Below are positions 7,857 through 45,871 of a stretch of DNA of 64,000 nucleotides, in pieces. The notes under the pieces were generated by a model. That model did not search any database. It had not been told where the DNA came from and worked only from the letters and a program-made list of their open reading frames with translations. The stretch covers positions 62,001 to 126,000 of the forward strand of contig JAUXVD010000011.1 in assembly GCA_030684575.1 (NCBI GenBank), read 5' to 3'. Source of the DNA: Nitrospirota bacterium (GTDB taxonomy: Bacteria > Nitrospirota > Nitrospiria > Nitrospirales > Nitrospiraceae). The number at the start of each line of letters is the position of its first letter. Position 1 is the stretch's first letter. The translations under genes were made by a program, and so were the position numbers.

Positions 7857-7867
7857 TCTCCTTCGAA

Positions 7868-9971
<2,104 letters not shown>

Positions 9972-29413: not shown

Positions 29414-30454
29414 ATGGCATTTGTATGCGCTCACCCAACATGGCGACGGACCCTGCTCTCCTCTCTCATGCTGCTCGTGGTCGCCGGGATCTTCGCACCC
29501 TCCGCCCCGGCCGCCGATAAAATCACCATCTACTCCGGCCGCTCGGAACGGCTCATCAAGCCGGTGCTCGATGCCTTTACGGCAAGTACCGGGATCCAGG
29601 TCGAACTGTTGTCCTCCGGCACGACGGAATTGGTCAACCGCCTGAAGGCGGAAGGTGAGCGCACATCGGCCGACCTCCTGATCACCAACGACGCCGGCAG
29701 TTTGGAGTTGGCACGGACCGCCGGCCTCCTCCGCCCCCTGAACATGCGGGAAATCGAACGAGCGATTCCAGCACAGTTTCGCGCACCGGACAATGCATGG
29801 GTGGGTCTCTCCGGACGATTCTGGATCGTGGTCTACAACACCACGATGGTCAAGCCGGACCAAGTGAAGTCGCTCCTCGACCTCGCCGATCCAAAGTGGA
29901 AAGATAAGATTGCGATTCCGAATTCGGGCAGTGAATATCTGCAAGCCGGCGTCTCGGTCATACGCGCCACGCATGGCGAAGAGAAGACCAAGCAATTCCT
30001 GCAAGGCCTCAAGACCAATGCGGATAACCAGGTCTACCAAAAAAGCTCACAGATCGTGGATGCCGTCGCCAAGGGGCAGGTCGCATTGGGCATCGTGAAT
30101 CACTACTACGTCTATCGTCATCTTGCCGCGCAACCCACCGCGCCGATCGCCGTGGTGATGCCGGACCAGCAGGAAGGCGGCATGGGGGCGATCATGAATG
30201 TCGCCGGCGTCGGCATCGTCAAGTCGACTAAACATCTCGACAGCGCAAAGCTGCTCGTGGAATTCCTGGTCGCTCAAGCGGGACAGAAGTTGTTTGCCGA
30301 CCTCGACAAGGAGTACCCCCTCCATGCAGATGTGAAAGCAGATCCGGCCCTCGTGGACCGAAAGAGTTTCCGGGCCGCGCAGGTCCCCCTCACCAAGTTG
30401 GCTGAATTGCGCGAACCGACCCTCACATTGATCGAACAAGTGGGTCTCCGGTAA
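29414..30454 (+). CDS. fbpA: ferric-iron ABC transporter, substrate-binding protein
   Basis: A 346-residue periplasmic protein with a signal peptide ending near 'APSAPAAD'. The mature start 'ITIYSGRSERLIKPV' is the classic FbpA/FutA N-terminus and 'VNHYYVYRHLA' carries the Tyr pair that binds Fe(III). The ATG at 29414 has AAGGA 6 nt upstream; an earlier in-frame start overlaps fur and lacks support. First gene of fbpABC. Confidence 0.93.
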   Translation: MAFVCAHPTWRRTLLSSLMLLVVAGIFAPSAPAADKITIYSGRSERLIKPVLDAFTASTGIQVELLSSGTTELVNRLKAEGERTSADLLITNDAGSLELARTAGLLRPLNMREIERAIPAQFRAPDNAWVGLSGRFWIVVYNTTMVKPDQVKSLLDLADPKWKDKIAIPNSGSEYLQAGVSVIRATHGEEKTKQFLQGLKTNADNQVYQKSSQIVDAVAKGQVALGIVNHYYVYRHLAAQPTAPIAVVMPDQQEGGMGAIMNVAGVGIVKSTKHLDSAKLLVEFLVAQAGQKLFADLDKEYPLHADVKADPALVDRKSFRAAQVPLTKLAELREPTLTLIEQVGLR

Positions 30455-30468
30455 TCGAAGGACCCACC

Positions 30469-32052
30469 GTGAACATGCTTCGCCGCCACCTGACGTCGCC
30501 ACTCCAACTCTTCGCCTTAGCCACGGCCGGCATCATCCTGCTCCCGCTCGGGTACGTCACCTCACAAGCCCTCTCGGCCGATCCTGCCGTCTGGAGCCGA
30601 TTGTGGGCAACCCGGATCCCCGAGCTCCTGTTCAACACCGTCTCACTCGCCGCCAGCGTGGCAGTCATCACCTTGTTCCTCGGCGTGTCGACCGCCTGGC
30701 TGGTCACTCGTGTGGAATTTCCCGGACGAAGACTATGGGAGGGGGCTCTGATCCTTCCATTGGCGATGCCGACCTATGTGCTGGCCTACGTCTATTCCTA
30801 CATCCTTGGGTTCGGCGGTCCCGTCGAACATGTCTGGCAACTCCTGGCAGGGCCTCAAGCCAGGATTTTTTCTCCCCATAGTTATTGGGGTGCGACGCTG
30901 GTGATGGCGCTGGATACATTTCCCTTCGTCTATCTGCTCAGCCGGAGTGCGCTCCTCAGCATGAACGTGTCGTTCGAAGAGGTGGCGAGAGCCAGCGGCG
31001 TCTCCCGCCTCTCAACCCTCTGGCGCGTCACCCTGCCGCTGATGCGCCCCTCGATTGCCGCCGGTGTCGCGCTCGTCATTTTGTATGTCGTGTCGGACTT
31101 CGGCGCGGTGTCGTTGCTGCGCTACCAGACCCTCACCTATGCCGTATTCCAGCAGATGACCGGTCGGTCCGACAATACCGCGGCGAGCATCTTGAGCCTC
31201 TTATTGGTCGGGCTGGCGCTGATCTTCCTAATCACGGAACGCTGGTTCCGGCAGAAGAGCCGGTTCTACCAGACCACCGGGCGCTACCGGGCACCGCAAC
31301 GGCAGCGTTATGGATGGCTCGGTACGCTTGCCGTCACCGGCTATCTCGGACTGATCGTCGGCGCAGCCTTCGCAATCCCAGCCGCACTCTTGATTCAATG
31401 GAGCCTGTCGCCGGAGGCACAGGCCACTCTCGACAGCCGCTTCTTCGGGTTCGTCTGGAACAGCGGAATCCTCGCGGCCAGCGCTGCCACCGGCGGCGTC
31501 TTAATCGGCTTGCCACTCGCCTATCTGGCGAGCCGCCGTCCGACCTTCCTGAACCTAAGCTGCCTCCAGGCTGCCTATGCCGGCTATGTGCTGCCTGGGC
31601 CGGTTGCAGCCCTAGCCGTCCTCGTCCTCTTTACCAAACTAGCCCCGGTGTTCTATGGCTCCGTCCTGATCCTGATCGTGGCCTACGTGATTCACTTTCT
31701 CCCGGCCGGCCTTCAGTCGCTAGAGCCGGCTCTCCAGCAAATTACGCCAAATTTGGAAGAAGTCGCACGCACACTCGGCCTTGGCATGCATGGGACCTGG
31801 CGCCGAGTCACCCTGCCGCTCGTCCGGAACGGATTCGTCGTCGCCTGGGTCTTGATGTTCCTGCAAACGATGAAGGAGTTGCCCGCAACCCTCTTGTTGC
31901 GGCCGGTGGGATTCGACACCCTGGCTATTCGCGTCTGGATGGAAGCGAGCGAGGAATATTTTCAGCTCGCGGCCCCTTCGGCACTCTTGATTGTCGTACT
32001 GAGTCTTCCGGCATTGGCCTTGCTGGTTTCAAAAGATTGGCGCGCAGCCTAA
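30469..32052 (+). CDS. fbpB: ferric-iron ABC transporter, fused permease
   Basis: A 527-residue inner-membrane protein with about twelve helices in two halves, each with the EAA loop of importer permeases ('FEEVARASGVSRLSTLWRVTLPLMRPS' and 'LEEVARTLGLGMHGTWRRVTLPLVRNG'). This two-in-one permease is typical of FbpB. GTG start with AAGGA 7 nt upstream, 14 nt after fbpA. Confidence 0.93.
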   Translation: MNMLRRHLTSPLQLFALATAGIILLPLGYVTSQALSADPAVWSRLWATRIPELLFNTVSLAASVAVITLFLGVSTAWLVTRVEFPGRRLWEGALILPLAMPTYVLAYVYSYILGFGGPVEHVWQLLAGPQARIFSPHSYWGATLVMALDTFPFVYLLSRSALLSMNVSFEEVARASGVSRLSTLWRVTLPLMRPSIAAGVALVILYVVSDFGAVSLLRYQTLTYAVFQQMTGRSDNTAASILSLLLVGLALIFLITERWFRQKSRFYQTTGRYRAPQRQRYGWLGTLAVTGYLGLIVGAAFAIPAALLIQWSLSPEAQATLDSRFFGFVWNSGILAASAATGGVLIGLPLAYLASRRPTFLNLSCLQAAYAGYVLPGPVAALAVLVLFTKLAPVFYGSVLILIVAYVIHFLPAGLQSLEPALQQITPNLEEVARTLGLGMHGTWRRVTLPLVRNGFVVAWVLMFLQTMKELPATLLLRPVGFDTLAIRVWMEASEEYFQLAAPSALLIVVLSLPALALLVSKDWRAA

Positions 32053-32072
32053 TTAGGAAGGATTGTGACTTC

Positions 32073-33197
32073 GTGATCTCAGACCATTCCACCGCACCAA
32101 GTCCATCCGGGGAGGGCATCGTCCAGGGCAACCTCTTTACACCGGCCTCCTCGGTCTTGGAACTGCGCCATGTGTCCTGTTCCTATGAAACCGGTCGCCC
32201 CGCAGTTCAGGAGATCTCCTTCGCGGCCAGGGAGGGAGAAATTCTCTGTTTGCTCGGCCCCTCCGGCTGTGGCAAAACCACAATTCTGCGCGCGATTGCA
32301 GGCTTTGAACCGGTTCGTTCAGGCCAGATCTTTTTGTCCGGCCAACTCATGTCGTCGCCGGACGTGATGACTCCCACAGAAAACCGCCGGGTTGGCATGG
32401 TCTTTCAAGAATACGCACTATTTCCCCACTTGCGAGTGCAAGACAACATCGCCTTTGGACTCCAACAGCTCACTCGAAACATACGTGCCGAGCGGGTCCA
32501 GGAGATGTTGAGGCTCACGGGGCTGGAAGGATTCGAGCAGCGTTACCCGCACGAATTATCGGGAGGCCAGCAACAGCGGGTTGCCCTGGCGCGCGCGCTG
32601 GTTCAAAGCCCAGTCGTGCTGCTGCTCGATGAGCCCTTTAGCAACCTAGACCCGGACATGGCCGGGCGCATGCGCCAGGAATTGCACGAACTGCTGCGCC
32701 GGACAAAGACAACGACCGTGCTCGTCACACATGACCATGACGAGGCATTTGCCATGGCCGATCGAATCGCCGTGCTCAACCAAGGTCGCCTGGAGCAATT
32801 CGACACCCCGGAAATGATCTACCACATGCCGGCGACGCCGTTCGTGGCCGATTTTGTCGGCCAAGCGGACTTCATTCCCGGAACCGTATCCCACGGCATG
32901 GTCCAGACCGAACTGGGAGAGTTTCCCGACACGATCGGGTGCACAGACGACACCGCCGTCGTCGTCATGATCAGGCCGGACGACATTCATCTCGTACCTA
33001 CGGAAGGCGCCCGCGCTCGCGTCCTCTCCCGTCAATTCCGCGGATCTGAAAATCTCTACACGGTCAGCCTCCCCTCCGGTCAAATCGTCCATAGCAGTCA
33101 AAGCTCTACGAGCGTATATCAAGCAGGTACAAGCGTAGAACTTCGTGTCTTGGCGACCCATACGGTGCTCTTCAGGCAAGAAAAATCCGCGAGCTAG
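32073..33197 (+). CDS. fbpC: ferric-iron ABC transporter, ATP-binding protein
   Basis: A 374-residue ABC ATPase: Walker A 'GPSGCGKTTILR', Q-loop 'FQEYALFPH', signature 'LSGGQQQRVALARAL', Walker B 'VLLLDEPFSNLD', then a C-terminal TOBE-like regulatory domain (about 250-374). The GTG at 32073, 10 nt after AGGAAGGA, is the start; the same frame is open far upstream but that part lies over fbpB and reads as non-protein. A palindromic repeat begins at the last base of its stop. Confidence 0.93.
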   Translation: MISDHSTAPSPSGEGIVQGNLFTPASSVLELRHVSCSYETGRPAVQEISFAAREGEILCLLGPSGCGKTTILRAIAGFEPVRSGQIFLSGQLMSSPDVMTPTENRRVGMVFQEYALFPHLRVQDNIAFGLQQLTRNIRAERVQEMLRLTGLEGFEQRYPHELSGGQQQRVALARALVQSPVVLLLDEPFSNLDPDMAGRMRQELHELLRRTKTTTVLVTHDHDEAFAMADRIAVLNQGRLEQFDTPEMIYHMPATPFVADFVGQADFIPGTVSHGMVQTELGEFPDTIGCTDDTAVVVMIRPDDIHLVPTEGARARVLSRQFRGSENLYTVSLPSGQIVHSSQSSTSVYQAGTSVELRVLATHTVLFRQEKSAS

Positions 33198-33519: not shown

Positions 33520-33951
33520 ATGAATGCGTTACACAACCTGGTCGATTATGGAATCATCGGCCTCTTACTGGCACTCAGCCTCTGGACCGTCGCCGTTGCG
33601 GTGGAGCGGTGGCTCTTTTACCGCCGTGTCGATCTCGCGCAATACCCCACCAACCTGGGGCTGGAAATGGCGCTCACCAAACATCTGGTCATCATCGGCA
33701 CGGTGGCCGCGAACGCCCCCTACATCGGCTTGCTGGGGACCGTGCTCGGCATCATGCTCACCTTCCATACGATGGGAACCTCCGGCACCATGGCGGTCAA
33801 TGCCATCATGATCGGACTCAGCCTTGCGCTCAAAGCCACGGCGGTCGGACTGCTGGTCGCCATTCCCTGTGTCGTCATGAACAACGTACTCAGACGGAAG
33901 GTGACCGAACTCCTCGCCCAACACAAGGAGCAGCATGCAACGAGACATTGA
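33520..33951 (+). CDS. exbB: TonB-system energiser ExbB (short type)
   Basis: A 143-residue MotA/TolQ/ExbB protein with three membrane helices ('YGIIGLLLALSLWTVAVAVERW', 'ANAPYIGLLGTVLGIMLTF', 'ALKATAVGLLVAIPCVVMNNVL'). The conserved 'APYIGLLGTVLGI' and 'ALKATAVGL' stretches line the proton path. It is the short ExbB type (about 140-150 residues), not the 240-residue enterobacterial type. It overlaps exbD by 17 nt. Confidence 0.9.
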   Translation: MNALHNLVDYGIIGLLLALSLWTVAVAVERWLFYRRVDLAQYPTNLGLEMALTKHLVIIGTVAANAPYIGLLGTVLGIMLTFHTMGTSGTMAVNAIMIGLSLALKATAVGLLVAIPCVVMNNVLRRKVTELLAQHKEQHATRH

Positions 33952-34309
33952 CCAGATCAACGTCATCCCCCTCGTGGATGTGATGCTGGTCCTGCTGGTC
34001 ATCGTCCTGACCACCGCCACCTTCATCAGCAGCGGACAAATTCCCGTCAATTTGGCCAAGGCGAAAGAAGTCGGCGATCGTAAAGAAACCCCGGTCGTGA
34101 TCACCCTCACTGCCGACGGGGCGCTTTTTCTCAACGACCATGCCATTCCTGAGGGAGGGCTTCCCAATGCCCTGGCCACGGAACCTCGAGAGTCGGCTGT
34201 CGTCGTACGGGCAGACAAGGTCACCTTGCTCGAACGATTCGTGTCTGTGGTGGATGAAGTGCGGGGCCTGGGGTTTCAACAGGTCAGTCTGGAGGTCATT
34301 CGTCTGTGA
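33935..34309 (+). CDS. exbD: TonB-system component ExbD
   Basis: A 124-residue protein with one N-terminal helix that carries the proton-binding Asp in 'INVIPLVDVMLVLLVIV', followed by a periplasmic domain. ExbB-ExbD uses the proton gradient to drive TonB. It overlaps both neighbours (17 nt with exbB, 4 nt with tonB). Confidence 0.92.
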   Translation: MQRDIDQINVIPLVDVMLVLLVIVLTTATFISSGQIPVNLAKAKEVGDRKETPVVITLTADGALFLNDHAIPEGGLPNALATEPRESAVVVRADKVTLLERFVSVVDEVRGLGFQQVSLEVIRL

Positions 34310-35286
34310 TCGCTGCCGGACCACCTCGATCAGGGCTCCAAAAAGAGGCGCACAGCCTGGGCTGGCTTGTCTCCGTCCTCTTACATGGTGCCGTGGCACT
34401 CTTCGCGATCGTACTGGTGACGCAGATTCAAGACTCGCCTCAAGACGAATCTTTCAAGTGGAACGTCGCCATGGTGTCGCCGACACAACCGGTCACACCC
34501 ACTGCATCGCCACCCCATCAATCCACAGCTCCATCAGTTTCACCTCCACCCCAGACTCCTGCCTCTCCCCTGCAGCAGAATGCGCCGACACAGCTCCTCG
34601 CAGCACCTCAGCCCCTTGCGCAACAAACGACTCCCTCGATTGCTGAGCGAACGCCCGTCACTCCAATGGTCGCTGAGCCTCCCACACCAACGCCACTCGA
34701 ACCAGTGCCGCCCTTACAATCAGCAGCTCCTACGGCACGACCAGCCGAGCCCTTCAGACATGAGGCTGTGGCACCGAGAGCTCCCGAAGCCACACCGATT
34801 CAGAAACCAGCCGAGGAACCGCCAATCGTACCAGTGCCATCTGATGCACATACGGCGCCATCGACCCCATCCGCCGCTCCCGCTTCACCACCGATCCAGA
34901 CGGCCACCCTTTCCCCGACACCAACGCCCCTGACCGACGCAGCGCCCGCGCAAAATGCCGCCATCGCTCGGGCACCAGCGAACACACCGATGAAGCGCGA
35001 CTATGGCTGGCTCTCAGAAGCAATTTTACGGCGAGTAGAAGAGCTGAAGCGTTATCCGGCCTCGGCCCGGGCGGAACGAGCTGAAGGGAAAGTTGTGGTG
35101 AAAGCCGTGATCAGCGAGGACGGAAGTATCAGCGAGATGGAAGTGTTTCAAAGCTCCGGGCATCCCGGTCTCGACAAGGCCGCGATGGACACCATGAAAC
35201 AGGCAGCTCCCTTTCACTTGCCTCATCCATTAGGCCAGCCACGTATGACGATCAAGATTCCAATGAGTTATCGCTTGGATCGATAG
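34306..35286 (+). CDS. tonB: TonB family protein
   Basis: A 326-residue protein: one membrane helix (about 16-38), a very long Pro/Ala/Thr/Gln-rich periplasmic spacer (about 55-225), and the TonB C-terminal domain (about 235-326; 'RRVEELKRYPASARAERAEGKVVVKAVISEDGSI', 'GLDKAAMDTMKQAAPF'). It starts at a GTG overlapping the exbD stop. The spacer is long enough to span a wide periplasm. No TonB-dependent receptor lies in the window, so the partner is elsewhere. Confidence 0.92.
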   Translation: MIAAGPPRSGLQKEAHSLGWLVSVLLHGAVALFAIVLVTQIQDSPQDESFKWNVAMVSPTQPVTPTASPPHQSTAPSVSPPPQTPASPLQQNAPTQLLAAPQPLAQQTTPSIAERTPVTPMVAEPPTPTPLEPVPPLQSAAPTARPAEPFRHEAVAPRAPEATPIQKPAEEPPIVPVPSDAHTAPSTPSAAPASPPIQTATLSPTPTPLTDAAPAQNAAIARAPANTPMKRDYGWLSEAILRRVEELKRYPASARAERAEGKVVVKAVISEDGSISEMEVFQSSGHPGLDKAAMDTMKQAAPFHLPHPLGQPRMTIKIPMSYRLDR

Positions 35287-35313: not shown

Positions 35314-35628
35314 CTAATTTCGGCAATCCAGCTGCTGCCAGTCTCTCAATGTCCCTTCGCGATCGAATGTCAGCACATAGGCGCGGCAAAAGGATGAACG
35401 GGCCGTACCAGCGTAGCCGGAGTTGGCGCTCCCTCGGTCAAAGTACGTCCAGACTACGTGACGGTCCAGACGCTCCTCAACCTTATGGGGCGAGCCATAA
35501 CGCTTCGCCACCCGTTCGGCCGTGGCCTCATTGACGCGATCTTTGAAGTAGTGGGTGTCGATCTCCGAACAGGCGCCGACGACCCCTACGGCACAGAGAA
35601 GCAGAAATTGCTGAACGGTCCGCATCAT
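35314..35628 (-). CDS. small lipoprotein with BamE/SmpA-like fold
   Basis: A 104-residue lipoprotein: signal peptide ending 'GVVGAC' (Cys about residue 20), then 'ERVAKRYGSPHKVEERLDRHVVWTYFDRG...RAYVLTFDREGTLRDWQ', which resembles the alpha-alpha-beta-beta-beta SmpA/BamE fold. Start overlaps the apbE stop (ATGA), so it is made with ApbE. It may sit in the outer membrane and help assembly of a partner, but this is inference. Confidence 0.65.
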   Translation of the reverse strand: MMRTVQQFLLLCAVGVVGACSEIDTHYFKDRVNEATAERVAKRYGSPHKVEERLDRHVVWTYFDRGSANSGYAGTARSSFCRAYVLTFDREGTLRDWQQLDCRN

Positions 35629-36677
35629 TGCCCCTGCCCTCTGCCATCCGACTGCCCTGGAAACCGAACCCGGTCCTGTAACCCTGAAGAAAGAAACAGG
35701 CGGCCATCAGCACCGACGATAATCGCTTCAACATCCGGCAGCCGTTCAATGAGCTCTATGCCCTGCTCCGGCCCCATCACAAAGATACCCGTGTCAAGTC
35801 CATCCGCCCAGACCCCTTCTTTGGCGATCACCGTCACACTCTGGCAGCCCCGGGCCGGCTGAAGGGTTTGTGGATCAAGGATATGATGATACCGAACCCC
35901 GTCACGCTCGAAAAATCGTTCATAATCACCTGCTGTTGAAATGGCTTCATCTTCCAAGTCGATATAGACAAGAACTGCGCCCTCTTTGCGGGGATGTTGA
36001 ATACCGACGGGAAACGTTCTTCCACCCGGTAGCTGTCCGAATGTTTTGATATCACCGGAGAGCGCCACCACTCCAGCCAAAGCCCCCGCCTTCTTCATCG
36101 CCATCACGGCATGATCTGCGGCAAAGCCCTTTCCGATTCCTCCGACATCGATCCGCATGCCCGTCTTTTCCAGATAGAGCGTCTGCTCGTGCAGATCGGT
36201 CCGAACTGCCTGCAAATTCACCAAGGGACGAAGAGCCGCTAACTCAGCCTCTGTCGGTATCCTTTGGCCTTCCGTGACATGCCAGAGATCGACGGCCGGA
36301 CCGATGGCAATATTGAATCCACCACCGGTTAATTCCGCAGCCTGCTTCGCACGCTGAACAACCGTCCAGGTCTCAAGGCTCACAGGGACAGGCTTGATTC
36401 CGGCCGCCGCATTCACGCGAGAAAGCTCGCTGCTTGGGATCCAGGTGCTCAGGAGTTGCTCAAGCCGTTTCACTTCATGAAAGCCGGCATTGATCGCACT
36501 GTGCGCGGCCTGATCGGTTGGCGCCACAGCCGTAATGGACACCAACGTTCCCATGTGCATCTGCGCTCGTTTCACCACCACGGATGGAGAGCCAGGTGAC
36601 AGCCCGACACATCCGGATTGCATCACCAGAACGAGGCAGAGACAGCATGAGGATGCCATTGTTCGAACCATAGACAT
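35625..36677 (-). CDS. apbE: FAD:protein FMN transferase ApbE (lipoprotein)
   Basis: ApbE attaches FMN from FAD covalently to a Thr or Ser in target proteins in the periplasm. The 350-residue product starts at an ATG with AGGAGG 7 nt upstream; an upstream GTG is rejected. It has a lipoprotein signal ('LVMQSGC'), the FAD/Mg site 'RIDVGGIGKGFAAD', 'STAGDYERFF', 'HHILDPQTLQP' and 'WADGLDTGIFVMG'. The likely client is the FMN-binding protein at 39232-39912, which has the target motif SGAT. Divergent from the Fur-box promoter at 36893. Confidence 0.94.
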   Translation of the reverse strand: MSMVRTMASSCCLCLVLVMQSGCVGLSPGSPSVVVKRAQMHMGTLVSITAVAPTDQAAHSAINAGFHEVKRLEQLLSTWIPSSELSRVNAAAGIKPVPVSLETWTVVQRAKQAAELTGGGFNIAIGPAVDLWHVTEGQRIPTEAELAALRPLVNLQAVRTDLHEQTLYLEKTGMRIDVGGIGKGFAADHAVMAMKKAGALAGVVALSGDIKTFGQLPGGRTFPVGIQHPRKEGAVLVYIDLEDEAISTAGDYERFFERDGVRYHHILDPQTLQPARGCQSVTVIAKEGVWADGLDTGIFVMGPEQGIELIERLPDVEAIIVGADGRLFLSSGLQDRVRFPGQSDGRGQGQ

Positions 36678-36892
36678 GAACTGCCTCCTACCTGACATAA
36701 CCGTGAAAAATGCAAGGAGAGCCATGACTACGACTTCCGCATCACTAAATCCTGAGCCAGCCAACGAGCTCCGAGAGCTCCGATTCACCTGATCAATCAC
36801 AAGGATTACTGAGCCATCCTGGCAGAATTATAGGCAATATCCTGCAGGAAAGCATGCGCTTCCTCCTCCCAAAAACATGTACAAGGCCCCCC

Positions 36893-36940
36893 TTGACAAT
36901 CGAGCCACCATCAGGATATTAATAATCGTTCTCAATTTCA
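36893..36940 (+). promoter_or_regulatory. promoter with Fur-box-like site upstream of the com-like/porin genes
   Basis: TTGACA (36893-36898) and TATTAA (36917-36922, 18-nt spacer) form a promoter. AATAATCGTTCTCAATTTCA (36921-36940) overlaps and follows the -10 and resembles a Fur box (compare ATAATCATTCTC). Predicted to give iron-repressed transcription of the genes from 36963 on. Confidence 0.6.
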
Positions 36941-36962
36941 TTTAGATCGATTGGCGCTCACA

Positions 36963-37154
36963 ATGGTCACAACAAATGCTCCTACATCACATGCCCATCA
37001 CAGCGACGAAACACGTTGCGAGTGCGGACAGCTCATCGCCAAGGTACGAGGGCAAGGCCTCGAGTTGAAATGCAAACGTTGCAAACGGATTGTTGTCATC
37101 CCCTTCACCGCCATAGAGGGCTGGACAGATCTCCCGTCCAGCACCGCCTCATGA
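36963..37154 (+). CDS. Com-like zinc-finger protein
   Basis: A 63-residue protein with the pattern C-x-C-x(15)-C-x2-C ('CECGQLIAKVRGQGLELKCKRCKRIVVI'), close in form to phage Mu Com, a small zinc protein that binds mRNA and switches on translation of mom. An N-terminal His-rich stretch ('SHAHHSDE') precedes it. The ATG at 36963 is chosen; a TTG 12 nt upstream is possible and no clear ribosome-binding site is seen. It is the first gene after the Fur-box promoter and 113 bp before the porin gene, so a role in control of the porin mRNA is a guess worth testing. Confidence 0.6.
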   Translation: MVTTNAPTSHAHHSDETRCECGQLIAKVRGQGLELKCKRCKRIVVIPFTAIEGWTDLPSSTAS

Positions 37155-37267: not shown

Positions 37268-38731
37268 ATGAAGATCCGGTCAATCCTCGGGGCTCTTATT
37301 ATCGCCAGTTTGCCGGTCATGCCGGCGTTGGCAGAGAACATGACCCCGGAGGACATTAAGAAGCTCGTCGACGAAGCCGTCAACAAACGAATGCAGGAAC
37401 ATGAACGCCACGATAGTCCCATGGAACGAGCCATGGAAAAGAAGGAGGGTCAGCCTGGTGCCGTCCAATACCCCACCGCGACCGGACCCATGACCGATAT
37501 CAGGGTCGAGCGGAAGGGAGAAGAAAAGGTTGCCTTAGGCTTCGGTTCAACCGGGTCAGGAAAACTGATCTATGCCAAACCATTCTTGAGCGCCCCGAAG
37601 GCTACGGTTGGCGGTTATGCGGATGTCATGTACAACAACCTGTCGCGTCAGAACCTGGACAATCCCAGCCGCCATAGCTTCGGACAACAGCGAATGGTGC
37701 CCTTCATCTATGCAGACATCACCGACCACATCAAGTTCGCCACGGAAATCGAGATCGAACGCGGAGGGCAGAACGCGCCCCAAAGCGGCGACGGCTCGAT
37801 GCAGATCGAGTTTGCGCAAATCGACTACCTAGTACACGAGGCCGTCAACCTCCGTGCCGGTATCCTCCTGATGCCGGTTGGCAAGTTCAACTTGCTGCAC
37901 GATTCACCTTTGAACGATCTCGTAGATCGTCCCATGGTCTCTAGAATCATCATCCCCAGCACCTGGTTTGAATCGGGTGCCGGCATCTACGGCACCCTCT
38001 ACCCGTCATCCCAGTCCAAGCTGGACTATGAAGTCTATGCGGTCAACGGCATGAGTCAGACTGCAGGCTCAATTACTGATGCGGGAGTGCGAGGTGCACG
38101 AGGCAGCGTCTCTCGTGATCGTGACGACAACAAGGCTGTCGTCGGCCGCCTTGCCTTCAGCCCGATGCTCGGGATTGAAGTGGCAGGGTCCGGTTATCAT
38201 GGTGCCTACAAACCCTCTTCCGGGGCCATCGGAACCGGACGCATCAGCATCTTCGCACTCGACTGGACTCTCCAGAAAGGGCCATTCGAAGTGATTGGAG
38301 AATCCGCCTGGACCAGAATCAGTAATAACAACGCGACTGGTACCCCTGGGAGCGGGATCGGACCAGCCGGCATGCAGGGTTACTACATCCAGGGGAACTA
38401 TCACTTCATGCCTGACGTCCTGAAAAAATGGGCTCCCAGCCACTTCTCAGATGCCTCGACCTTCACAGCGGTTGTGCGTTGGGAACATGTCGATACCGAC
38501 ACGGACAATCGCACGCGGAATGCGCCCAATACTTTAGGAAATCGGCGGGAGTTGGAGCGGTTGACGCTCGGTCTGAACTTCAGGCCGATCGAAGACACCG
38601 TGTTCAAGTTTGACTGGCAGTTCAACACACAGAAAAATGCAACTGGCCTGGTCAATGCTGGAGACCTGGGCACGTCGAACAGCCCGATGAATGGGAACGG
38701 ATTCCTAATTCAAGCAGCGACATACTTCTAA
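37268..38731 (+). CDS. outer-membrane beta-barrel porin, paralogue 1
   Basis: A 487-residue outer-membrane protein. Signal peptide ends near 'MPALAEN'; a short coiled coil (about 25-60, 'EDIKKLVDEAVNKRMQEHE') precedes a barrel of alternating strands, and the chain ends in Phe ('AATYF'), the BAM signal. GGAGG lies 6 nt before the ATG. It shares long blocks with the product of 40673-42190 ('GSTGSGKLIYAKPF', 'GKFNLLHDSPLNDLVDRP'). No plug domain or TonB box was seen, so it is not a TonB-dependent receptor. The substrate is unknown; position behind a Fur-box-like promoter suggests a role under iron limitation. Confidence 0.8.
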   Translation: MKIRSILGALIIASLPVMPALAENMTPEDIKKLVDEAVNKRMQEHERHDSPMERAMEKKEGQPGAVQYPTATGPMTDIRVERKGEEKVALGFGSTGSGKLIYAKPFLSAPKATVGGYADVMYNNLSRQNLDNPSRHSFGQQRMVPFIYADITDHIKFATEIEIERGGQNAPQSGDGSMQIEFAQIDYLVHEAVNLRAGILLMPVGKFNLLHDSPLNDLVDRPMVSRIIIPSTWFESGAGIYGTLYPSSQSKLDYEVYAVNGMSQTAGSITDAGVRGARGSVSRDRDDNKAVVGRLAFSPMLGIEVAGSGYHGAYKPSSGAIGTGRISIFALDWTLQKGPFEVIGESAWTRISNNNATGTPGSGIGPAGMQGYYIQGNYHFMPDVLKKWAPSHFSDASTFTAVVRWEHVDTDTDNRTRNAPNTLGNRRELERLTLGLNFRPIEDTVFKFDWQFNTQKNATGLVNAGDLGTSNSPMNGNGFLIQAATYF

Positions 38732-38774: not shown

Positions 38775-38791
38775 AAGGATTGAGTCGATTC

Positions 38792-39247
38792 ATGGATCTA
38801 ACAAAAGTCAGCCTCCTCATCATGACCGGCCTCCTGACAGCCTGCGCCTCCATGAGCGACATGCAGCAGCGATTTGCCGTCTGCAGCTATGACCATGCCT
38901 GGGAAGCGGCCCTTGAGGCCGTGAAAGATCGGGCGATCAACACGAAGGATAAGAATGGCGGGCTGATCGTGACCGGCTGGCTGGAAATCCCGATGCCGGG
39001 ACGGACCTTTGGTGCCCTCCAACGCGACGTGGGGGACAGCAGAGATCGGTCCCGTATTACCCTCACGGTGAAACGACTCGACGACGTGACAAAGATCAGT
39101 TTCGTAGAAGAGCGGCAACGGTGGGCGTTCCGAGGCGGCTCTCGTCTCTTTGGCTGGGCCTCCACGGACCCATCGGACGATGTCATGCGCGATGTCCAGA
39201 GCCGACTGGACACCAAACTCAAGGAGCACAAATGTTCGCTCTCGTAA
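38792..39247 (+). CDS. lipoprotein of unknown function
   Basis: A 151-residue lipoprotein with signal 'MTGLLTAC' (Cys about residue 18) and a domain with 'YDHAWEAALEAVKDRAINTKDKNGGLIVTGW', a pattern of small outer-membrane lipoproteins with a BamC/YajI-like helix-grip. The ATG at 38792 has AAGGA upstream at about 11 nt. Its last 16 nt overlap the start of the FMN-binding protein gene, so the two are coupled. Confidence 0.65.
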   Translation: MDLTKVSLLIMTGLLTACASMSDMQQRFAVCSYDHAWEAALEAVKDRAINTKDKNGGLIVTGWLEIPMPGRTFGALQRDVGDSRDRSRITLTVKRLDDVTKISFVEERQRWAFRGGSRLFGWASTDPSDDVMRDVQSRLDTKLKEHKCSLS

Positions 39248-39912
39248 CACTCTCAGCTCTTCTGTTCTCGACGGGGTTGATACTCACCGCCGAGGCATCT
39301 GCCGCCGAACGCGTCTGGGACAGTGAACTGCGCCGCTACGTCACAGAAGACGACTTTAAATACGAAGAGTTCATGACAGAAGAAGACGCGCTGAAAACCG
39401 TGCTGCCAAAATCTCAACAGGTTCGCAAGGAACTGATCCGGCTCACCGCAGAAAAAAAAGAGCTGATCGAGCAGCGGATCGGATGGAAATTTCCGGAGGA
39501 TTCGTTCGAACTCTACATCGGTCAAACCGGCGACAAGATCGACGGCTATGCCATGATTCACAATACTATCGGCAAGTATAAACCCATGACTTACATGGTC
39601 GGAGTCGATGCCAAGGGCACCTGCACCGATGTCGAGCTCCTCGTCTTTCGAGATGCCAAAGGCAGTGAAGTCAGGACAAAGCGTTTCAACGCTCAGTACG
39701 ACGGAAAAACAGTGACGGATCCAATTCGGATCAACAAGGACATTATCAACATCAGTGGCGCAACGATGTCCGTCCGTTCCATGAGCGCCGGCGTCAAGCG
39801 GGTCCTTGTCCTCGTGGATGAGTTTTATTTGAAACCGGCAGGATTGGGCAGCGATACGGTCGCATCCCGCAAGAGTGACAAGGGATTTTTCACATCGATT
39901 TTCGGCAACTAG
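39232..39912 (+). CDS. FMN-binding (flavinylated) periplasmic protein
   Basis: A 226-residue secreted protein: signal peptide ending 'AEASAAE', a charged helical region (about 40-90), and an FMN_bind domain (about 95-205; 'GYAMIHNTIGKYKPMTYMVGVDAKG') like that of NqrC/RnfG. 'INISGATMS' near residue 180 is the S/D-G-A-T-type motif to which ApbE attaches FMN. It would be a one-electron carrier outside the cytoplasm. The ATG at 39232 with AAGGAG upstream lies within the end of the lipoprotein gene. The next gene encodes a likely membrane partner. Confidence 0.88.
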   Translation: MFALVTLSALLFSTGLILTAEASAAERVWDSELRRYVTEDDFKYEEFMTEEDALKTVLPKSQQVRKELIRLTAEKKELIEQRIGWKFPEDSFELYIGQTGDKIDGYAMIHNTIGKYKPMTYMVGVDAKGTCTDVELLVFRDAKGSEVRTKRFNAQYDGKTVTDPIRINKDIINISGATMSVRSMSAGVKRVLVLVDEFYLKPAGLGSDTVASRKSDKGFFTSIFGN

Positions 39913-39924
39913 AAGAAGAGGACC

Positions 39925-40455
39925 GTGCGTCCCACTATGAAAAATTTCAATCAGCGATTCAAACTTCGCGACTCCGATCGCCACATCAGAATGCTCTATA
40001 CGCAGTTCTTACTGCTGATGTTGATCGGATTTTTATTTTCATTCTTTTGGGCCCATAGCATGACAAGCTTATCCCCTCAGGGCATTGCCGACCATTACCG
40101 CGGATCGGATGCGACCTTCGGCGAACCCATGTCGTTCCGTGAATTGGCCGAGATCACGCATTTCCATTTGTTTACCATGCCGGTGGTATTCATGATTCTC
40201 GTCCATGTCCTGTTTCTGACCAACGCCAGCCCCGCCATGAAAGTGTGGCTCTCATGGCTCTCCTTCGCCGGAGTGGGGCTCGATCTCCTGTCTCCGTGGC
40301 TCATCAGTTACGTCTCTCCTATCTTCGTCTTGACCATGCTGACCGGCGATACGCTCATGATGGTGACCTTTCTCATCATGATGTGGATTCCCCTGTATGA
40401 AATGTGGATTTTGAAACAACCGCTCATGTCCGGGAAACGCCCAGACCCGACATAA
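39925..40455 (+). CDS. four-helix inner-membrane protein, likely partner of the FMN-binding protein
   Basis: A 176-residue membrane protein with four hydrophobic helices. The second contains 'THFHLFTMPVVFMILVHVLF', where two His are 13 residues apart on one helix side, and other His lie near the first helix end ('FFWAHS'). Such His could bind heme b or a quinol site, but this is inference. The GTG at 39925 sits too close to AGGA; the ATG at 39937 is a little far; both remain possible. Placed 12 nt after the FMN-binding protein gene, it may feed electrons to it. Confidence 0.6.
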   Translation: MRPTMKNFNQRFKLRDSDRHIRMLYTQFLLLMLIGFLFSFFWAHSMTSLSPQGIADHYRGSDATFGEPMSFRELAEITHFHLFTMPVVFMILVHVLFLTNASPAMKVWLSWLSFAGVGLDLLSPWLISYVSPIFVLTMLTGDTLMMVTFLIMMWIPLYEMWILKQPLMSGKRPDPT

Positions 40456-40507
40456 TCTCGCAGCAGTGATTCGCACAACTTAGCCCGGCCAGAGGTTTTT
40501 CACCCAG

Positions 40508-40541
40508 AGCCCAAGATCACAAGAGTGGTCTTGGGCTTTTC
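40508..40541 (+). terminator. intrinsic terminator after the FMN-binding operon
   Basis: AGCCCAAGA-CAC pairs with GTG-TCTTGGGCT around an AAGA loop, and TTT/TCATTT follows. It ends the transcript that begins at the Fur-box promoter and separates porin 2. Confidence 0.8.
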
Positions 40542-40672: not shown

Positions 40673-42190
40673 GTGAAGACGGCATTACGACTCGGGGTAC
40701 TCATCATCGCCTTGTGGCCTGGCATTTCAGCATTCGCCGAAGATACATCGCTTGAGGGTCGCATCAAACAGATCGAAGAAGAACTACGGCAGCAACGAGA
40801 AATGGTCAGGCAATATCAGGAGCATGACCGCCAGGGAAGCGCCGGTGAGCGGCGGGAGGGACCTGCAGGACAGCCCCAGGAACCAGGGATAGGGTCGCTC
40901 CCAGAGGTAGGACGGGAACGACGTATGGATCAGCAGCCGGCCCTCTCATTCGGGTCAACCGGATCTGGTCGATTGGTGTATGCCAAGCCATTCGTCACTG
41001 CGCCAAAAGCAATTGTTGGGGGATATGCAGATGCCTCCTTCCGTTCTCAACGGAAGGGGACGATCGAAAACGGTTATTCAACCATACGAAATGGCCAAGG
41101 CATCACCAATAATTTCGACCAACAACGTTTTGTCCCCTTCATCTATGGAGATATTACAGAACACCTTAAGTTTGCTGCCGAAATAGAAATTGAGCATGGG
41201 ATCCGTGAGGAGGGTGGACCTGATCGTGAAATCGAATTCGGGCTTGAATTTGCGCATTTCGACTACCTGATCAAGGAGGCCATCAATTTCAGGGCAGGCA
41301 TCCTGCTCTTACCTATCGGGAAGTTCAACCTGTTGCACGATTCCCCCTTGAACGATTTGACGGATCGCCCCCTCGTCAGCCAGCTTATTATCCCCACCAC
41401 TGTGTCGGAAACTGGAGCCGGATTCTACGGAACATTCTACCCAGGCACCACGGACAAAGTAGATTACGAGCTCTACGTGAGCACCGGGCCCTGCGGACAT
41501 GAATCGGATGGAACTCCAACGATCAACGAGGAAAATGGGACCAGAGGAGCCCGCCAGCGGAAATGCGGCGCCAGCGATGGCTTCGACATCAATAACGGTA
41601 AAGCGGTTACCGGCCGGCTCGCTTACAGCCCGTTTCTCGGCGTTGAAATTGCCGGGTCTGGATACTACGGCAATGCCTCGCCCAGCAGCTACAACCCCCT
41701 GAGCATTACCGCACTCGATTGGACGCTCCAACGAGGACCATTTGAAATCCTCGGCGAAGCGGCATGGGCCTATGCCAGAGGTAATTCCAAAGCCATCCCG
41801 AATAATCAATTAGGATTCGCACCAGGATCGCTCCTGACTAGCCTCGGCGGCAACAGCCTCGGCATCGCCCCTCAACGCATGGACGGTCTCTATCTGCAAG
41901 GCAACTATCATTTCATGCCTGAATGGCTGTCGAAGCTATCCCCTAAACGATTCGGACCAGGCTCAACATTCACCGCCGTCTTTCGCTACGACCGGGTGAA
42001 TACAAACCAGGACAATAAGCAGGGAGGGTTTGGGGAACTTGAGCAATATTCTTTCGGGATTAATTATCGCCCCCTCGAAGATGCCGTCATTAAAGCAAGC
42101 TGGCAATATCAACCCAAGGCCTTTGACCCGAACTCTACGTCGAGAATTCATAACAATGCCTTGGTGCTCTCTGTCGCCACATACTTCTAG
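40673..42190 (+). CDS. outer-membrane beta-barrel porin, paralogue 2
   Basis: A 505-residue paralogue of the protein at 37268-38731. It has a signal peptide ('AFAED' end), an N-terminal coiled coil (about 25-55), a Gly/Pro/Arg-rich linker, the shared block 'GSTGSGRLVYAKPF', 'GKFNLLHDSPLNDLTDRP', and a terminal 'VATYF'. GTG start with GGAGG 6 nt upstream. The leaders of the two porin genes share GAGTCCCGAGTC and a similar layout, so the duplication took in the leader too. This copy follows its own terminator and so has its own promoter, not recognised. Confidence 0.8.
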   Translation: MKTALRLGVLIIALWPGISAFAEDTSLEGRIKQIEEELRQQREMVRQYQEHDRQGSAGERREGPAGQPQEPGIGSLPEVGRERRMDQQPALSFGSTGSGRLVYAKPFVTAPKAIVGGYADASFRSQRKGTIENGYSTIRNGQGITNNFDQQRFVPFIYGDITEHLKFAAEIEIEHGIREEGGPDREIEFGLEFAHFDYLIKEAINFRAGILLLPIGKFNLLHDSPLNDLTDRPLVSQLIIPTTVSETGAGFYGTFYPGTTDKVDYELYVSTGPCGHESDGTPTINEENGTRGARQRKCGASDGFDINNGKAVTGRLAYSPFLGVEIAGSGYYGNASPSSYNPLSITALDWTLQRGPFEILGEAAWAYARGNSKAIPNNQLGFAPGSLLTSLGGNSLGIAPQRMDGLYLQGNYHFMPEWLSKLSPKRFGPGSTFTAVFRYDRVNTNQDNKQGGFGELEQYSFGINYRPLEDAVIKASWQYQPKAFDPNSTSRIHNNALVLSVATYF

Positions 42191-42979: not shown

Positions 42980-44737
42980 ATGGTTGCCTTATCCGCTCGG
43001 CTCATCCCCCACGCAGTCTCAGCCATTCTTGGCTCTCTGTTCCTCGTTGCATGCGGATCTGGCGGAAATACGGGAGCCGCTCCGGCTTCTGTTGCTGCGA
43101 CAGGGACTCCCGGCGCAGAAGAAGCCGTCGGTGAACGACTGTTTCTTGAAACCAGGTTCGCGCAAGCCTTCAAAGTATTCTTGGATAATAACGGCAACGT
43201 GAACGATCCGAACGCCGACGACGCCGTCGTCAGAACCGTCGAAACCACCATGCCTGGATCGCCGATACCAGGATCAATCAGCCCGGGCCCCTTCAACGGT
43301 CTCTCCATGAATTGCCGCGCCTGCCATATGGTAGATGAGGTGCCGACAGCGGCGGGGGGAGGTATGCGGACCTATGCCGACTTCGCGCGCCGGAGCCCAA
43401 TTCCAGCGCGTGCCGACGGCAAGACGCATGCACCGCGTAATTCTCCTGCGCTGGTCAATTCTACGCTGGATCGAACCGGTGGGGGCCTGTTCCATTTCGA
43501 TGCGGAATTCAACTCGATGGAAGATTTAGTCGCGGCCACATTCACAGGCAGGAACTACGGATGGCTCCCCGGTGAACGAACGCAAGCCATTGCCCACCTC
43601 GCACGAGTGGTGCGAGGCGACAATGGATCGTTCAACCTCGCAGATCCATCCAGCGGTTTGTCCTACCGCATTCTGTTCACCGGAACGAATGCCGCCATCC
43701 CAGACGATCTCCGCCTTCCGCCACAGTTCCGTGCCTTTGTGGGATCGGGCACCGATCAGGAGATATTCGACGCCGTCGTAAAAGTCGTCGCCGCCTATGT
43801 CAACGGCCTCCTCTTCTCGCAAACCGACGACAATGGCACCCCGATTCGCTCGCCCTTCGATGTGTTCCTGGAGATCAATGGCCTGCCTCAGCAGCCGAAC
43901 ACCAATGAGTCGCCGCTCGACTACAGCCGACGGCTGCGGGCCCTTCTCAACGCGCCAGGGTTCAGCCCGCAATTCGTGACGTCCAACCCGAACCGACCGG
44001 ATGGCCAGTTTCAGTTCCATCCCTCGCAGAACTTCGAATTCGGAGCGGCTGAGTTGGCAGGGCTAAAGATATTTTTAGCAGAGCCGGCAGCGCTGCCCGC
44101 TTCACCGGGTGAATTGACTGCGGGAAGGATCGGTAACTGCATCAGCTGTCATGCTGCGCCGAACTTTACGGACTTCAAACTGCACAATACGGGCACGACC
44201 CAACAAGAGTTCGACGACGTGGCGGTCGGCGCCGGCCATGCCCCTGGATCGTTTATGGCGCTCTCCATCCCCACCCTAGCCGCACGAACAGCCAACGATC
44301 TTCCTGCGACCGAACAACATCCCACCGCGAGCGACCGGTTCCGATCGATCCCTTCAGCGGGAACCACGTTGACAGATTTAGGGGTCTGGAATGTCTTTGC
44401 CAATCCCGACATGCCTGGCCCTCAAGCTAAGATCAGAGCCATCTTATGCGATGACCAACAGCCCTGCCCGCTAGGAGAGAGCACTCTGCTCGATCGGGCT
44501 ATCGCCCGATTCAAAACTCCAGGCCTTCGGGACCTGAGCCACTCTGCTCCCTATATGCATACGGGACAGTTCGACACATTGGACGACATCATCGGGTTCT
44601 ATCGCGGAGTCTCCGCGCAAGCGCGCGCGGGATCACTGCGAAATGGCGCAGCCCAACTCCAGGGCATCGCGTTGACCGCCGGCGATCTCGCGTCGCTGGT
44701 CGCATTTTTACAATCGCTGAACGAGGACTACCAATAG
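42980..44737 (+). CDS. di-heme cytochrome c, MauG/cytochrome c peroxidase family, lipoprotein
   Basis: A 585-residue lipoprotein (signal 'LFLVACGSG') with two heme c sites: 'CRACH' near residue 113 and 'CISCH' near residue 391. The end 'APYMHTGQFDTLDDIIGFYRG' is the family signature of bacterial di-heme peroxidases/MauG-like oxidases; the protein is longer than classical peroxidases (about 330) and has an inserted N-terminal region. AGGAG precedes the ATG. It depends on the ccm operon for heme. Electron partner unknown; periplasmic. Confidence 0.85.
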   Translation: MVALSARLIPHAVSAILGSLFLVACGSGGNTGAAPASVAATGTPGAEEAVGERLFLETRFAQAFKVFLDNNGNVNDPNADDAVVRTVETTMPGSPIPGSISPGPFNGLSMNCRACHMVDEVPTAAGGGMRTYADFARRSPIPARADGKTHAPRNSPALVNSTLDRTGGGLFHFDAEFNSMEDLVAATFTGRNYGWLPGERTQAIAHLARVVRGDNGSFNLADPSSGLSYRILFTGTNAAIPDDLRLPPQFRAFVGSGTDQEIFDAVVKVVAAYVNGLLFSQTDDNGTPIRSPFDVFLEINGLPQQPNTNESPLDYSRRLRALLNAPGFSPQFVTSNPNRPDGQFQFHPSQNFEFGAAELAGLKIFLAEPAALPASPGELTAGRIGNCISCHAAPNFTDFKLHNTGTTQQEFDDVAVGAGHAPGSFMALSIPTLAARTANDLPATEQHPTASDRFRSIPSAGTTLTDLGVWNVFANPDMPGPQAKIRAILCDDQQPCPLGESTLLDRAIARFKTPGLRDLSHSAPYMHTGQFDTLDDIIGFYRGVSAQARAGSLRNGAAQLQGIALTAGDLASLVAFLQSLNEDYQ

Positions 44738-44915: not shown

Positions 44916-45386
44916 CTACTTCTTGATGTGCTCGGCGAGGTACCGGTCGAGTCCCACTTGATCGATCGTTCTGAGCTGGGTCTCAAACCAATCGACATGC
45001 TCCTCCGAGTCCACCACCATGTCTTCCATCAAGTGGCGGGTGGTGAAATCTCCAACCTTCACGCAATGGACAATGGCTTTGCGGAGAGACTCGACATCTT
45101 CACGTTCAAATCCAAGATCAGCCGTGAACAGGTCTTGTACCGTGCGGCCCGCCATCACCTGATCGAGATGCGAGACATCCGGAGTCCCGTCCAGATAGAG
45201 AATGTGATCGATCAGACCTGAAGAATGACTGACTTCCTCTTGCGCCAGATGGCTGAAATGTTCATGCAGCCGCTCATAACCCCAATTCTTACACATGGCC
45301 GCATGCAGCAGGTATTGATGTACGGCTGTCAGCTCCGACTTCAACACCTGATTGAGGAACTCGACGACGCCTTCTTTGGCTTTCAT
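44916..45386 (-). CDS. bfr: bacterioferritin, ferroxidase-type subunit lacking the heme Met
   Basis: A 156-residue four-helix ferritin. By alignment to E. coli Bfr, Glu18, Glu51 and His54 of the ferroxidase centre are kept, but the heme ligand Met52 is Val ('EEVSH'). Near the fourth helix it reads 'VDSEEHVDW', where the Glu127 position looks shifted. It is 8 nt downstream of a second bfr with the opposite set of residues. Iron storage and detoxification in the cytosol; likely a mixed shell with its neighbour. The ATG at 45386 starts the conserved 'MKAKEGVVEFLN'. Confidence 0.88.
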   Translation of the reverse strand: MKAKEGVVEFLNQVLKSELTAVHQYLLHAAMCKNWGYERLHEHFSHLAQEEVSHSSGLIDHILYLDGTPDVSHLDQVMAGRTVQDLFTADLGFEREDVESLRKAIVHCVKVGDFTTRHLMEDMVVDSEEHVDWFETQLRTIDQVGLDRYLAEHIKK

Positions 45387-45394
45387 GGTCTCCC

Positions 45395-45871
45395 TCAGCT
45401 CTCTTTCTTGATCTGTTCGGCGAGATAGTTCTCCAGGCCGACTTGCTTGATCGTTTCCATCTGCGTTTCGATCCAGTCGATATGCACATCGACATCCTTC
45501 GCCATATCTTCGAACATGTGGCGGGTCGTGAAGTCCAGAACCTTCGTGCAATGGACGATGCCTTCGTTCAGCAATGTCAGCATTTCATGCTCAGCCTTGA
45601 GGTCGAGCTTGAGCTGCTCAGGAACCGTTTCCCCCACCTGAACGGTATTCATGCGTTGCACGTTCGGCACACCCTCCAGATAGAGGATGTGCCCAATGAG
45701 TTCATCGGCATCCTTCATCTCGTCGATGCTGCGTTCCCGAACTTTATGCTGGAGCCGCTCATAGCCCCAGTTCTCACACATCTTGGCATGGACGAAGTAT
45801 TGATTGATCGCGGTCAGATCTGCAGTCAGCACCTTATTCAGGACGTTGACGACACCCTCTTTAGCTTTCAT
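45395..45871 (-). CDS. bfr: bacterioferritin, heme-type subunit with altered ferroxidase site
   Basis: A 158-residue bacterioferritin. Met52 for heme is present ('SIDEMKDAD'), but ferroxidase residues are changed: Glu18 to Asp, His54 to Asp, and the Glu127 position to Val ('KDVDVHIDW'). This complements the adjacent subunit and suggests one carries heme and the other oxidises iron, as known for two-subunit bacterioferritins of other bacteria. It comes first in the two-gene unit; upstream 250 bp up to topA hold no gene and no clear promoter was picked. Confidence 0.9.
   Translation of the reverse strand: MKAKEGVVNVLNKVLTADLTAINQYFVHAKMCENWGYERLQHKVRERSIDEMKDADELIGHILYLEGVPNVQRMNTVQVGETVPEQLKLDLKAEHEMLTLLNEGIVHCTKVLDFTTRHMFEDMAKDVDVHIDWIETQMETIKQVGLENYLAEQIKKES

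Follow-up and report, generated by a model that had tools for sequence, protein, structure and literature searches.

The last two genes of a Fur-type operon in a Nitrospirota bacterium (Nitrospiraceae) encode an FMN_bind protein, predicted to be periplasmic and flavinylated, and a small four-helix membrane protein that matches no family in the collections searched. We propose that this pair is a minimal two-part extracytoplasmic relay, which passes electrons from the membrane to a flavin for iron acquisition, and we put the probability of this reading at roughly 0.6. Pairs of a flavinylated protein and a membrane redox protein that serves it, often for iron, are already known; what is new is a membrane partner outside DUF4405 and outside the five partner classes given in the survey of flavinylated systems (NapH-, MsrQ-, PepSY-, DsbD- and NQR/RNF-like) (Meheust et al. 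2021, PMC8238504). Surveys have named several membrane partners and left many FMN_bind genes without one, and the protein described here is a further, very small partner, whose invariant residues are clear and which has its counterpart in a cytochrome version. No description of the pair was found in the literature on ApbE, FMN_bind and iron in Nitrospira, and an uncommented listing in survey supplements is possible.

The iron locus and its Fur-type operon

The window, a stretch of 64 000 nucleotides, covers positions 62001-126000 of its contig in a genome of 3.79 Mb. On the forward strand, the locus begins with the sole Fur-family regulator of the genome (28914-29348; PF01475, E 5.3e-33), followed by an ABC importer made up of an iron-type solute-binding protein (29414-30454; PF13343 SBP_bac_6, E 3.9e-22), a permease (30469-32052; PF00528 twice) and an ATPase (32061-33197, start approximate; PF00005 and TOBE_2), and then by ExbB, ExbD and TonB (33520-35286; PF01618, PF02472 and PF03544). 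The sole ApbE flavin transferase of the genome lies on the opposite strand (35625-36800; PF02424, E 2.9e-82). The operon itself, again on the forward strand, opens with a small CxCG...CxxC ribbon protein (36963-37154; motif in 46 loci), for which Pfam gives nothing above cutoff and which is perhaps an iron-responsive regulator. It continues with a porin O/P-like outer-membrane protein (37268-38731; PF07396, E 2.4e-7; family in 76 loci), a small lipoprotein with weak similarity to DUF3576 (38780-39247; PF12100, E 3.7e-4, below cutoff; family in 60 loci), the FMN_bind protein (39232-39912) and the four-helix membrane protein (39937-40455), and is ended by an intrinsic terminator with a 15-pair stem (40506-40539). 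Beyond the terminator are a second porin-like protein (40673-42190, forward strand), which has motifs in common with the first porin and no Pfam match, a CCP/MauG-like heme protein of 585 aa (42980-44737; Pfam matches below cutoff) and two overlapping ferritin-like genes on the reverse strand (44916-45871), which are kept beside the locus in many relatives. The initial annotation did not place the pair at the end of a Fur-type operon or within a locus for iron uptake.

A promoter scan found a sigma-70 promoter upstream of the operon, TTGACA-N16-GATATT, with the Fur-box-like sequence GATATTAATAATCGTTCTC overlapping its -10 element and the conserved element running on as AATTTCATT (36893-36942, forward strand). 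GATATTAATAATCGTTCTC agrees with the Fur consensus at 15 of 19 positions, the best match in the window, and none above 13 was obtained in five shuffles. The element is near-identical in 31 other loci, in an arrangement that mostly has TTGAC 16 nt ahead of the element and, behind it, a variable spacer followed by AATTTCAT. In 27 of 45 loci, the sequence upstream of the ribbon gene contains a match of at least 15, compared with 23 of 900 segments drawn at random from these loci, some of which may overlap the Fur-box-like site itself. Judged from this conserved promoter site, the operon is predicted to be regulated by Fur. Elsewhere in the window, a TPP riboswitch aptamer was detected at 7861-7963 on the forward strand (RF00059, 70.2 bits).

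The iron neighbourhood extends to distant homologues, in whose loci Fur, a porin and either FTR1 or an ABC importer are still found with the pair. At least one core iron gene is present in 35 of the 44 loci with long upstream flanks, and about a fifth have none in the stretch covered, the flank fetched for relatives stopping short of the distance at which Fur lies in the window (about 11 kb upstream). Loci of the latter kind, together with the CCP/MauG-like heme protein downstream, would fit a pair that serves some non-iron respiratory or detoxifying reduction and shares only its regulation with the iron locus. We consider this unlikely, since a lone Fur, a promoter of the Fur type and iron transporters recur with the pair across distant clades.

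The predicted flavoprotein and its obligate partner

The FMN_bind protein, the only one encoded in the genome according to a genome search, is 226 aa long, has a signal-peptide-like N-terminus and exceeds the Pfam cutoff for PF04205 (E 5.7e-8; 33.7 bits vs 22). Its flavinylation motif, [ST]GA[ST], is present as SGATMS, and by its sequence the protein should carry covalent FMN attached by ApbE. In the set of homologues, the motif reads SGAT, TGAT or SGAS in 81 FMN_bind sequences, AGAT in three from Methylomirabilota and GGAT in the one from Oligoflexia. The protein has the FMN_bind domain of RnfG and NqrC, and its modelled fold resembles theirs (E 4.6e-8). Unlike them, however, it falls below the NCBIfam cutoffs (RnfG, 25.4 bits vs 102), has no other Rnf/Nqr subunit among the ORFs listed around its gene and is distinct from the NqrC of other Nitrospiraceae; membership of Rnf/Nqr was therefore rejected. 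The initial annotation had described an SGATMS-bearing FMN_bind protein just before a four-helix protein, which PF04205 and the AlphaFold bundle bear out. The gap of 12 nt that it gave between the two genes holds for the longest frame of the membrane gene (39925-40455, GTG start), but the ATG at 39937, 24 nt past the FMN_bind stop, is the likelier start because nearly all homologues begin with M[KR]NF or similar.

Relatives of the membrane protein occur in 111 of 296 genomes of the phylum. A wider scan, which used short peptide patterns and the best 80 matches and thus gives a lower bound on taxonomic spread, recovered the protein from Nitrospirota (Ca. Manganitrophus among them), Ca. Methylomirabilota and one Oligoflexia genome; no relative was found in the viral contigs or plasmids searched. 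Of the 91 FMN-type loci (genes called as longest ORFs, with a few duplicates from two collections among the loci), 90 have an FMN_bind gene no more than about 425 nt upstream, and the lone exception is at a contig edge with only 219 nt upstream. In the window's family, for which genomes were counted by hand from the result tables, 65 of 79 genomes hold the membrane gene, and FMN_bind is present in all 65 and ApbE in 63 of them. Among the 14 genomes without it, 10 have no FMN_bind and four have only the NqrC type (about 277 aa, E about 1e-17), which was read directly in G102, where it is the NqrC of an nqrABCDEF-apbE operon, and assigned from length and score in the other three. Nine genomes with both types of FMN_bind carry two ApbE genes. 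The conservation and linkage of the pair are far beyond chance. Homologues away from FMN_bind, which the initial annotation had named as evidence against its proposal, were found only in distant, separate clades, most with a cytochrome c domain instead.

The association with ApbE goes as far as fusion. Several Nitrospirota encode the two as one chain with ApbE first, Oligoflexia as one chain with FMN_bind first, and in both groups the membrane gene follows directly; these single chains of opposite domain order are encoded at L031, L032, L034, L035 and L066. Two ApbE/FMN_bind fusions of opposite order suggest strong functional linkage. At three Methylomirabilota loci, ApbE stands between the FMN_bind and membrane genes, which makes it the nearest match in the linkage script. 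The membrane gene always adjoins the FMN_bind/ApbE pair in its clade, and one could therefore suppose that it encodes a maturation factor, for example an FAD/FMN exporter or a docking protein for ApbE, and no electron carrier. This seems very improbable to us, given that the long homologues bear a cytochrome c of their own with neither ApbE nor FMN_bind nearby, and that the genome with NqrC only has its own ApbE without the membrane gene.

The membrane protein and the proposed electron path

AlphaFold, run with 44 relatives, predicts the membrane protein with a pLDDT of 90 and a pTM of 0.82, with long helices at residues 15-43, 67-93, 99-125 and 128-157 and a short helix at 47-55. The N- and C-terminal tails are positive and the loop at 44-66 is negative, suggesting that both ends are cytoplasmic and that HxH lies near the periplasmic end of the second transmembrane helix. 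This second long helix carries HFHLFTMPVVFMILVH, and the motif E-x2-H-x-H-x12-H never varies within the FMN-linked clade, where Y54, E72, H75, H77, H90 and W121 are identical in 42 of 42 diverse sequences; identity to the nearest relatives, in Nitrospira species, reaches 92%. The two His noticed earlier, 13 residues apart on one helix, are H77 and H90 (ATG numbering), and the loss of conservation that would have spoken against the earlier proposal does not occur in these 42 sequences. In the model, H75 and H90 lie 15 residues apart on one helix face, separated by 60 degrees and a rise of 22.5 A.

In agreement with the earlier view that the partner fits no recognised family, searches of Pfam with 44 members (best chance E 0.01, in one member each), NCBIfam, PDB sequences, PDB folds and a viral fold library gave nothing. 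A likeness of HxH to helix II of heme-copper oxidase subunit I is tempting, but Foldseek gives E 5-9 over 69 columns. Membership of PepSY, MsrQ, NapH and DUF4405 was rejected for want of any match to PF03929, PF01794, PF12801 and PF14358, the last of which has no match at E 1 among the 44 members. The genome of the window has no PepSY_TM, Ferric_reduct (MsrQ-type) or Fer4_5 (NapH-type) gene, and DUF4405 appears only below cutoff, leaving the four-helix protein as the only candidate partner among the kinds tested. The locus resembles the flavinylated systems described in the survey in that a periplasmic substrate of ApbE is encoded beside ApbE itself and a membrane protein for electron transfer, often in the company of iron genes, and differs in that its membrane protein belongs to none of the families described there (PMC8238504). 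Likewise, it combines a flavinylated protein with an iron transporter, as do the P19-associated and FTR1 iron systems with FMN_bind genes in the same source, but with a different protein as membrane partner (PMC8238504).

In the proposed relay, the ApbE of the locus would couple FMN covalently to the motif threonine (SGATMS) of the secreted FMN_bind protein, and the four-helix protein would draw electrons from the membrane, with quinol as the most likely source and b-type heme as a possible carrier. The quinol site would be formed near the periplasmic face by Y54, E72, H75, H77 and W121; an invariant Tyr, a Glu and two His near this face suit a quinol-oxidising site. Electrons would then pass from the four-helix protein to FMN, and the reduced flavoprotein may in turn reduce ferric iron or ferric chelates arriving through the co-transcribed porin, after which uptake of the iron would fall to the ABC importer nearby, or to FTR1 in some relatives. 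Fur would repress the operon when iron is plentiful. Ferric iron is proposed as the acceptor because of the genomic context. FbpA-type importers usually take Fe(III), which is awkward to reconcile with reduction to Fe(II). A further point against the relay is H90, which lies near the cytoplasmic side and is unexplained by a purely periplasmic quinol site.

H90 does have a place in a variant of the relay, with another cofactor and another electron path, that we regard as a tentative possibility. The conserved His are on one transmembrane helix only, so that an ordinary two-helix bis-His heme is impossible in a monomer and would need dimerisation. As a diheme b cytochrome, the protein would be a homodimer in which the two second helices hold two stacked hemes, through H75/H75' and H90/H90', and electrons would cross the whole membrane to FMN. 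The position of H75 and H90 on one helix face and the invariance of all three His in the FMN clade suit such an arrangement, and it has a precedent in FezC, the ferrosome cytochrome related to the flavinylation-associated DUF4405, which binds heme B at sites modelled as formed by homodimerisation (Huang et al. 2024, PMC10979944). Like DUF4405/FezC, the protein is a small His-bearing membrane protein tied to flavinylation and iron; unlike them, it has four helices, with the conserved His on one transmembrane helix, where they have six helices and four central His (PMC10979944). Neither sequence nor fold relates it to DUF4405, PepSY or MsrQ, and the cytochrome c clade has lost H90. The initial annotation's idea of a quinol- or heme-linked electron donor is still the best reading, with redox role and cofactor standing as proposals, and its "new two-part" carrier is upheld by the obligate pairing, the invariant His and the lack of a known family, with ApbE as a third gene. 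Nitrifying Nitrospira depend on iron-rich enzymes, and the relay turns the question of how they free iron into one that can be tested.

Sister clades of the membrane protein

In the tree of the membrane protein, the FMN-linked clade (67 rows), a cytochrome group (17) and a third group, termed 'other' (5), are each in one piece. Members of the cytochrome clade (L137:5948-6724, L042:5061-5771 and others) are about 240-270 aa long and have a mono-heme cytochrome c domain inserted, whose CxxCH falls in the loop that joins helices 1 and 2, adjacent to HxH; they retain the Tyr and HxH, are without H90, and their membrane part has no Pfam family. The L137 member sits between a cytochrome c gene and Rieske and cytochrome b genes, and the L042 member has a cytochrome c and an FAD/NAD/2Fe-2S reductase in its stretch. 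The heme domain fills the periplasmic loop next to HxH that would be the docking site of the flavoprotein, and it is mainly for this reason that we ascribe an electron-transfer role to the membrane protein. The clade fits both a redox role and an exchange of flavin for cytochrome, which the survey reports for other flavinylated systems (PMC8238504). We are evenly divided on a broader claim, namely that Y...HxH...W marks an undescribed superfamily of membrane redox modules with four helices, in a flavin version, which serves iron acquisition and has a separate ApbE-flavinylated partner, and a cytochrome version, which belongs to cytochrome bc operons and has its cytochrome c domain inserted after the first helix, ahead of the second, the flavin version being the Fur-controlled ferric reductase of most Nitrospira.

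The 'other' clade (L146:5636-6310, L040:3388-3957) has neither CxxCH nor H90, and its neighbours are a CbiM/CbiQ metal importer in one case and a P-type ATPase in another, suggesting that HxH could bind metal. Together with the iron context, and with HxH being a common pattern of metal ligands, this would suit a membrane protein that handles metal, either as an Fe(II) permease or as a metal-binding partner receiving the iron reduced by the flavoprotein. Such a role is improbable, as the cytochrome c sister clade has a member in a cytochrome bc operon, the locus already has an iron importer, and acidic or polar residues are few along the helices. The L040 locus also holds an FMN_bind-like protein without the flavinylation motif.
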